This document shows positions 29,779 through 31,873 of a DNA stretch of 32,900 bases, piece after piece. Under the pieces are notes generated by a model. That model searched no databases. It was given only the letters and a program-made list of their open reading frames with translations, and had not been told where the DNA came from. Position 1 is the first letter of the stretch. Each line of letters starts with the position of its first letter. The stretch covers positions 1-32,900 of the forward strand of contig JAGGUZ010000004.1 in the NCBI GenBank assembly GCA_021158225.1, in the 5' to 3' direction. The DNA comes from a bacterium (GTDB lineage: Bacteria > Patescibacteriota > Gracilibacteria > UBA1369 > PNNO01). A program made the position numbers and the translations under genes.

Positions 29779-30510
29779 ATGAAAAAAAACGGTTGGATAA
29801 AAATAGTTGGGCTTTGTTTTACGGTTAGTCTTGTTGTTGGAATGATTGGAGGTGCGCTGACAAACGAATATTTAATCTCTTATTTATTCGGTCAACTTAC
29901 TCAAAAGCAAGAAGAGGATCTTCCGATTGTAAAAAAGGTTATTGAAGAAAAGGTTTATGTAGAGGAATCTTTAACTACAGACGCAATTGTAAAAGCCAGA
30001 CCTGTAGTTGCCACTTTATACTCTGGAAAAACATTAAAAGATGGAATTAACGGGGTTGTTCTTACTACGGATGGAGTTGTGGTATCTTGCGATCCAAAAT
30101 TGCAAAAGCAAAAGACTTGGAACATTATAGTTGGCGATCAAGATGTTGTTGAAGCGAATGTTATTCCTACAAATAGTAACAATGGTCTTATATATTTGCA
30201 GATTAAAAATAAAGGTGAGTTCTATAAAACCATTCCTTTAGCAAAAGATAATCTTAAGCTCGGGCAAAAGATGATTGTGTTAAATTCTGACTCTATTAGC
30301 AGTGCACTACTTTCGGAAATCGGTTCGAAAAATATGCACAGAATAGATCGCCAAGTTGGGGAAAAATTTGATTGCAGTCCGGTAATTAATTTGGGCGGAG
30401 AACTTGTTGGGATTGTTGCTTTAAATTCCAATAATAATCAGCCGGGAACAACTTTAATTATACCTGCTGAGAGTCTTGAAGAATTAATGGCAAAGGAAGT
30501 GGCTTTGTAA
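29779..30510 (+). CDS. HtrA/DegP-like protein without catalytic triad
   Basis: 243 residues with an N-terminal TM anchor (about 7-28, IKIVGLCFTVSLVVGMIGGA). The rest resembles a trypsin-like HtrA domain: NGVVLTTDGVVVSC (91-104) matches the 'GSGVI...DGYIVTN' strand, IPLAKDNLKLGQKMIVLNSD matches 'LGDSD.L.VGQ.V.AIGNP', and DCSPVINLGGELVGIVAL (198-215) matches 'NSGGPL.N..G.V.GI'. The histidine after VVVS is replaced (CDPK), the aspartate of 'D.AVL' is missing (NNGLIYL), and the serine position holds Asp. There is no PDZ domain. I infer an inactive binding or regulatory paralogue. The 3' end overlaps the convergent gene by 53 nt. Confidence 0.7.
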   Translation: MKKNGWIKIVGLCFTVSLVVGMIGGALTNEYLISYLFGQLTQKQEEDLPIVKKVIEEKVYVEESLTTDAIVKARPVVATLYSGKTLKDGINGVVLTTDGVVVSCDPKLQKQKTWNIIVGDQDVVEANVIPTNSNNGLIYLQIKNKGEFYKTIPLAKDNLKLGQKMIVLNSDSISSALLSEIGSKNMHRIDRQVGEKFDCSPVINLGGELVGIVALNSNNNQPGTTLIIPAESLEELMAKEVAL

Positions 30511-31873
30511 GTAATAATTCTTTTAACTCATCTGCTTCTTTTGTGCTATCCGGTTTAAGGATTTTTATTATGCCTGTACTATTTGTCTCTTTTACGGTAA
30601 AGCTTGTTATTAGTTTATTCCCAACAAAAATACCTATAACATTTCCGTTGTTTTCGTTTGTTATCTGCTGAATTTCCTCTTTCCCTTTGTTATTAAAATG
30701 TAATATTAGATATGGATTATATGATTCGTCATATCTTGTTTCAACAGATGCAAGGGTTGATTCGTCAAAATCTATATTTTGCCACTGTGAAGGTACAAGT
30801 GCATAAAAAAGTATTCCGAATTTAACTTGAGGTTGGGTATCTGATTCTTCGGATGCCGATGTAACTTTGTTTGCCTTTATAATATGATATCCGAAGGGTG
30901 TTTCCGTAACCGGTGATATTTGATTTTCTTCATTAAGAGCCAAAGCGGCATTCTCGAATTGCTCAACATAAGTTTTATTTCCGGCAGGGGTTTCCAATAC
31001 TCCTCCGTCTTTACTGTTAGATGCGTCATCTGAATATTCCTTTGCAAGTTTTGCAAAATCTTCTCCATTATTTAATTTCTCAACCAGTTCGTTTGCGAGT
31101 GCTTTTGCTTCATCTTGAGTTCTGCTTATGCTGTCTGATGCCCTCATTGCGCCTTTATATGCAATTAAAATATGGCTGACATCGACTGTTTTATTATGTT
31201 TTGTTACTTTTTCTTTATCTCTTTTATCGAAAAGTTTTACTATGGCTTTAATTTTAACTGGTGGCGCAAGAGGTGACGCTTGTTCCGAATATTCAATAAG
31301 TTTATCACTCATATCTCCAGGTTCCATGTTAAACAGTTTATCCGCAAAAACATCTTTAATTTCGTCTCTGTACATGAAATCGCTGTGTATATATACTATT
31401 CTGGCTGGATCTTTAAGCACTTCGTTTTGAGCTGTTGTTTCAAAATCAGCGTTGTTTTTTAATTTTTCCAAAGTGGCTTTTGCTTGCATGGTTAGGTCGG
31501 TTTCATAATCGCTTTCGTCTTTGAATTGCTTTTTAAAAGTTAGTAAAGTGTTTTTATCCAAAGCTTTTTTTATATCGTTTATATCGTCGATTGTTCCGAA
31601 TTTCAGTTTTAAATAATCAGAGTTATTTTCTTTTGATAGATTGGTTGATACATTTGTAACATTAAATTTATTTAATCTGCCGAGTATTGTCGTTTTAAGA
31701 TCTTCAAGTTTTCCATCTATATTTGCAGTATCTATATTTGTAGTATTCGCCAAATATGTAATATCATATGTTTTATATTTGCTCGATTTTGTTATATCGG
31801 TGCATCCGGAAAGCGGTAAGCTTACAAAAATTGTAATAATTAACAGAGGAGTAAGTCGCTTGAGCATGTTCAT
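30458..31873 (-). CDS. Lipoprotein combining SecD-like ectodomain and parvulin PPIase
   Basis: 471 residues with a lipoprotein signal (LLIITIFVSLPLSGC, lipobox LSGC, Cys24). Residues about 36-115 (YDITYLANTTNIDT... ILGRLNKFNVTNVS... LKFGTIDDINDIKKALDKNTLLTF) resemble the N-terminal P1 part of SecD. Residues about 125-225 look like a degenerate parvulin, and 230-338 a complete one (VSHILIAYKG, DFAKLAKEYSDDASNSKDGG, FGYHIIKANKV). Residues about 365-460 (LILHFNNKGKEEIQQITNEN, IGIFVGNKLITSFTVKE, ELLLTKPLPLPLILQD) resemble the P1 head and the 'LL..G.LP.PL' segment just before SecD TM2. None of the SecD membrane helices is present. I infer an outer-face folding factor helping secreted proteins. The parvulin part is sure; the SecD kinship is by eye. 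An extended -10 is at 31914-31922. Confidence 0.85.
   Translation of the reverse strand: MNMLKRLTPLLIITIFVSLPLSGCTDITKSSKYKTYDITYLANTTNIDTANIDGKLEDLKTTILGRLNKFNVTNVSTNLSKENNSDYLKLKFGTIDDINDIKKALDKNTLLTFKKQFKDESDYETDLTMQAKATLEKLKNNADFETTAQNEVLKDPARIVYIHSDFMYRDEIKDVFADKLFNMEPGDMSDKLIEYSEQASPLAPPVKIKAIVKLFDKRDKEKVTKHNKTVDVSHILIAYKGAMRASDSISRTQDEAKALANELVEKLNNGEDFAKLAKEYSDDASNSKDGGVLETPAGNKTYVEQFENAALALNEENQISPVTETPFGYHIIKANKVTSASEESDTQPQVKFGILFYALVPSQWQNIDFDESTLASVETRYDESYNPYLILHFNNKGKEEIQQITNENNGNVIGIFVGNKLITSFTVKETNSTGIIKILKPDSTKEADELKELLLTKPLPLPLILQDSQQV

Follow-up and report, generated by a model that had tools for sequence, protein, structure and literature searches.

What a bacterium may do with a piece of its export motor that carries folding domains and lacks every membrane helix is the question raised by one gene of the window, the whole 32,900-nucleotide stretch analysed here, which is one contig of a gracilibacterial genome (990 kb, 33 contigs, 99% complete). 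The sequence-only reading of this locus had proposed an unusual single-protein version of SecDF plus PrsA, i.e., a combined translocation-release and prolyl-isomerase factor on the outer face of the membrane. The present analysis favours a foldase role over such a combined factor: the encoded lipoprotein is probably a PrsA-like surface foldase on a SecD P1 scaffold, derived from a truncated SecDF-parvulin paralogue.

The reading frame begins with ATG, is intact, and gives a product of 471 residues (Table 1). This product is a predicted lipoprotein, with LPLSGC as a lipoprotein signal of the PrsA type; in the alignment, the lipobox cysteine is present in five of the six family members with a complete N-terminus. 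The sixth, from G005 (L045:5803-7320, minus strand), has no lipobox cysteine (ALSWSSSDITKSS) and has an additional acidic segment, about 34 residues long, following the P1 base. Lipidation of the 471-residue protein is feasible because both Lgt and LspA are encoded in the host genome. Three genes for Lgt (prolipoprotein diacylglyceryl transferase) were found in this 0.99-Mb genome (G000:C16, C25, C6). A promoter scan gave a count near the shuffled mean. The gene at 29779-30510 on the plus strand encodes a membrane-anchored trypsin-like protein (PF13365, E 0.002, under the cut-off) whose catalytic serine motif is seemingly missing; it is convergent with the lipoprotein gene and overlaps the 3' end of the latter by 53 bp.

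Table 1. Features of the lipoprotein gene, in window coordinates.
Feature	Position	Strand	Basis
Whole gene: SecD ectodomain with a predicted lipid anchor and two parvulin domains, 471 aa	30458..31873	-	ORF, Pfam/NCBIfam, SecDF alignment, structure model
Signal peptide, residues 1-23, lipobox LPLSGC	31805..31873	-	Sequence
Cys24 of the lipobox, where the mature protein begins	31802..31804	-	Kept in 5 of 6 family members with a complete N-terminus
P1 base-like region, residues 37-115, without the SecD LGLDLQGG motif	31529..31765	-	Alignment with SecDF of own genome and relatives; 3aqo structural match
Degenerate parvulin 1, residues 116-222, without the first strand bearing the catalytic His	31208..31528	-	Pfam; match to SurA parvulin domain 1
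Intact parvulin 2, residues 223-342	30848..31207	-	Pfam; structural match; active-site positions
P1 head region, residues 343-465, with a PLPLPL stretch at its end (in SecD leading into TM2)	30479..30847	-	PF22599 over cut-off; alignment; structural match
Short C-terminal tail and stop codon, at the start of TM2 in SecDF	30458..30478	-	Overlaps 3' end of convergent gene

Pfam searches returned Rotamase_3 in two stretches (2.1e-29), Rotamase (PF00639) at residues 234-335 (3e-24; 86.3 bits against a cut-off of 21.7), and SecDF_P1_head (PF22599) at residues 372-460 (6.8e-8; 32.8 bits against 27). The NCBIfam SecD model (TIGR01129) aligned with residues 48-471 around a large insertion (1.2e-6), at 28 bits far under its cut-off of 244.4. 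The best NCBIfam peptidylprolyl isomerase model scored 74.6 against 303 bits and PrsA 36.2 against 343, both under cut-off; SurA scored 35.1 against 394, and the flanks of the parvulins match SecD P1. No match to PF02355 (SecD_SecF_C) was found in the lipoprotein; the six transmembrane (TM) helices of SecD are absent, and the protein stops where TM2 would begin. The LGLDLQGG (GG) motif that follows TM1 is absent from all six lipoproteins with a complete N-terminus and present in the SecDF of the same family, as aligned.

An AlphaFold2 model of the mature protein was computed from the window protein and 11 SecD-parvulin relatives; its mean pLDDT was 83 and its pTM 0.49, and the relative placement of its domains is uncertain. 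Its best PDB match was 3aqo, the P1 domain of T. thermophilus SecDF (VIA Z 19.0, 188 of 221 residues, rmsd 3.1, model residues 12-448). Structural comparison of parvulin 2 with Pin1 gave a Z of about 18, and Pin1 positions matched by hand place its active site at H234, D283, L293, F306, T325, and H330. Both histidines, the acidic residue, and the hydrophobic pocket of the parvulin active site are kept, and they are invariant or nearly so across the lipoprotein members. Parvulin 1, modelled alone (pLDDT 87), was closest to the first parvulin domain of SurA (VIA Z 9.6 over 87 residues); parvulins fill the first 20 rows of the VIA list, and every row below them has a Z of 4.1 or less. Foldseek alone returned nothing significant for the parvulin 1 model, and its parvulin reading rests on VIA and Pfam. 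Because this model begins at a helix, the strand with the catalytic histidine of other parvulins is missing.

These results bear out most of the anatomy first read from the letters, namely SecD P1 at either end, where the model shows the fold whose absence would have refuted that reading, a degenerate and an intact parvulin in the middle, the PLPLPL stretch at the end of the head, the loss of all SecD membrane helices, and the cysteine anchor. One detail changes. The parvulins are inserted in P1 as proposed, but they do not take the place of a P1 loop: the insert of about 240 residues follows the last strand of the P1 base (in SecDF, GKTIQLEFKE) and precedes the head, which starts with LTGEHF. 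The profile match to Thermus SecDF ends near residue 119-130 and restarts at 160; the insert therefore sits between base and head, and none of the head is replaced. The base-head interval may be a tolerant insertion site.

A separate full-length SecD, the search for which had been recommended, is present in the same genome. A gene on another contig (G000:C6 24733-27996; L004:4734-7997) encodes a SecDF of 1087 residues with SecD P1 and the SecD and SecF membrane domains; two parvulins, one degenerate and one intact, are inserted in its P1. The lipoprotein is 35% identical to this protein over 417 residues (E 5e-80), with the parvulin pair at the same insertion point; outside parvulin 2, the identity is 20-29%. 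Judged by this alignment, the lipoprotein is a cut-down paralogue of the host's SecDF-parvulin fusion. The notion of a single-protein SecDF plus PrsA is not supported for it: a separate full SecDF already carries the parvulin pair, LGLDLQGG, TM1, and the proton-relay helices have been lost, and its P1 is relaxed (see below). SecDF plus PrsA in one chain is a better description of the full-length paralogue, arguably the more striking protein because the export motor itself bears folding domains.

The SecDF-parvulin fusion is the norm in the order (53 of 59 genomes by our own count), and it also occurs in Parcubacteria-type lineages. Parvulin matches were found in 55 of the 59 genomes and, in all but two of these, are confined to SecDF frames or the lipoprotein. 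The two exceptions have short free parvulin frames: G013 (295 aa) and G029 (323 aa, besides its SecDF). The G029 frame (L052:1128-2057, minus strand) encodes a free, apparently secreted double-parvulin protein of 309 residues, related to the SecDF insert and without P1. When the survey was widened to class and phylum, several families again showed contiguous matches within SecD frames at least 680 residues long, and many others had an ordinary SecD; the fusion carriers named among the matches listed include Peregrinibacteria, Gracilibacteria, Uhrbacteria, Falkowbacteria, and Magasanikbacteria. For other phyla, Rotamase matched none of ten SecD/SecDF proteins (Bacteroidota, Ignavibacteria, Acidobacteriota, Verrucomicrobiota, and a Woesearchaeote). 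A hint of fusion from the 993-residue NCBIfam SecDF model NF009585 was not borne out by those ten proteins, which do not include the model's own members. In Bacteroidota SecDF (L158, L159, L160, L162, L163), about 150 residues in which Pfam recognises no domain separate the P1 base from the head, just where the parvulins sit in the fusion. The open-licence literature searched yielded no account of SecD fused to parvulins.

In the host genome, all PF00639 matches fall in SecDF or in the lipoprotein; searches for FKBP and cyclophilin gave no match there, and no separate PrsA was found in this 99% complete draft. A missed PPIase is possible because the assembly consists of 33 contigs. Since the order's parvulin matches, bar two, lie in SecDF or the lipoprotein across 59 genomes, no separate PrsA seems to be left for the work.

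Family f1 alone yielded the lipoprotein form, which occurs, always in synteny, in each of its seven sampled genomes. Its neighbours in all seven are genes named from sequence as serine hydroxymethyltransferase and 5-formyltetrahydrofolate cyclo-ligase. In G003 and G005, the lipoprotein and cyclo-ligase genes overlap at the start of the latter; in the other five genomes, the trypsin-like gene lies between the two. The contig of G004 holds only the 3' half of the lipoprotein gene, and the reading frame is intact in the other six members. In the tree, all six complete lipoproteins group in a single clade (100/100), and the stem leading to it is long, at 1.2 changes per column. This clade is placed among the SecDF proteins of the order, its position relative to families f1 and f2 not being settled by the tree; with so long a stem, a single clade of lipoprotein and f1 SecDF is neither shown nor rejected (p-AU 0.44).

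A second truncated copy was found in G350, a member of another lineage (L137:3769-5394, minus strand), where a 541-residue SecD-parvulin protein with a signal-like N-terminus lies in tandem with its 707-residue parent SecD. The two are sisters at 100/99. A single origin of the lipoprotein and the G350 copy was rejected (one-clade test, p-AU 7e-42), which means that SecD was truncated in this way on two or more occasions. The G350 copy, young and seen in one genome only, may be in decay. We see about even chances that, in these Patescibacteria, SecDF took up the extracytoplasmic parvulin foldase, PrsA disappeared as a separate protein, and release of the SecD ectodomain later gave rise to a free foldase at least twice, once as a lipoprotein and once with a signal peptide. 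If so, the export motor and the folding catalyst would form a single physical device, and the free foldase would have evolved from a translocase.

The function of the lipoprotein can be approached through the conservation of its domains. Mean pairwise identities were calculated by domain for the five genomes having both proteins. They were 76% for the base, 60% for parvulin 1, 52% for parvulin 2, and 70% for the head in SecDF, and 39%, 49%, 60%, and 53%, respectively, in the lipoprotein. The difference of differences between parvulin 2 and P1 was 0.33 (column-bootstrap 95% CI 0.22-0.44), a descriptive value as the genome pairs are not independent. Constraint is thus swapped: P1 is most and parvulin 2 least conserved in SecDF, whereas parvulin 2 is most conserved and P1 relaxed in the lipoprotein. 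This swap argues for a PrsA-like foldase rather than a translocation-release factor. Having no transmembrane helices, the lipoprotein cannot use proton flow; because the active site is kept and the proton-path helices are gone, a lipid-anchored PrsA-type foldase with P1 as a scaffold or chaperone surface is the simplest reading. P1 is relaxed, not lost (head 53%), which suggests that it keeps some function that a pure foldase reading leaves unspecified. PrsA itself is a membrane-anchored parvulin lipoprotein foldase whose PPIase is dispensable for some substrates, with other domains acting as chaperones (PMC12445088); the P1 part may therefore matter as much as the enzyme.

What the computations show is the homology, the anatomy of the domains and where they are inserted, the conserved gene order and orthology within the family, the constraint swap, and the absence of other recognisable PPIases; catalytic activity, a chaperone role, and a place near the translocon are inferred. 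In the proposed mechanism, a SecDF-parvulin paralogue would have been reduced to the extracytoplasmic P1 and its two inserted parvulins, tethered by lipid at the outer membrane face and probably located near the translocon. There, parvulin 2 would act as a prolyl isomerase on proteins as they leave Sec, and the scaffold of P1 together with the degenerate parvulin may offer a chaperone or docking surface.

A different role for P1 is that of a translocon-docked helper, in which it would bind the Sec translocon, SecDF, or the emerging chain, aid pulling or release, and bring the parvulin to the exit site. The P1 head is kept and, in the predicted model, folded like SecDF P1; SurA binds the holo-translocon, and AlphaFold predicts that both of its parvulin domains bind the P1 head of SecDF, thought to be polypeptide-binding (PMC9987972). 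However, P1 base and head are just the relaxed parts, TM helices, proton path, and LGLDLQGG are all gone, and the genome has a full SecDF; this role appears rather unlikely. The free ectodomain has the same domains as that of SecDF, and the two occur in one genome, so it might act as a decoy or regulator, adjusting export by competing for the partners of SecDF P1. Such a role is very unlikely, as divergence from the host's own SecDF is concentrated in P1, the part a mimic would keep. Truncation and faster evolution along the stem would also fit a duplicate heading for loss without a function of its own, but this is highly improbable given the intact frames, the position kept in seven of seven genomes, the active-site residues, and a parvulin 2 more conserved than that of SecDF. 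Family scans are dominated by parvulin matches, yet the idea of a normal PrsA or SurA parvulin whose SecD-like ends are due to chance is refuted by the full-length SecDF alignment, which takes in both P1 parts, and by the structural match to 3aqo.

In sum, a PrsA-like foldase remains the probable role of the lipoprotein. The fusion and the lipoprotein connect two functions carried out by different proteins in the bacteria studied so far, and a translocase part was released as a likely foldase; this suggests how a lineage with a minimal genome gets its exported proteins folded when it has no separate PrsA.

Compared with known systems, the lipoprotein shares with SecD/SecDF (TIGR01129; PF21760, PF22599, PF02355; T. 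thermophilus SecDF 3aqo/5yhf) the P1 base and head fold, the order of elements, and the proline-rich end before TM2; it differs in having no TM helices, LGLDLQGG, or SecF half, and in its two inserted parvulins and lipid anchor. The host SecDF-parvulin fusion shares both parvulins and the site of their insertion but is a full membrane translocase, with P1 strongly conserved and parvulin 2 least. The G350 copy likewise consists of P1 and parvulins with nothing from TM2 onwards, a signal-like N-terminus replacing TM1; it is, however, independent in origin, without a lipobox, and a young tandem copy in one genome. Like PrsA, the Gram-positive lipoprotein foldase, the protein is extracytoplasmic, predicted to be lipid-anchored, and equipped with one intact parvulin, whereas the N- and C-terminal chaperone domains of PrsA are replaced by SecD P1 and the degenerate parvulin. 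In SurA, the first parvulin domain is degenerate and the second intact as to activity. The lipoprotein has the same tandem order, and its parvulin 1 is closest to the first SurA domain; SurA differs in being soluble and periplasmic, with a chaperone core of its own instead of SecD P1. A parvulin pair covalently next to the P1 head, in SurA-like order, provides natural fusion evidence for the contact between SurA and the P1 head, and makes that contact testable.
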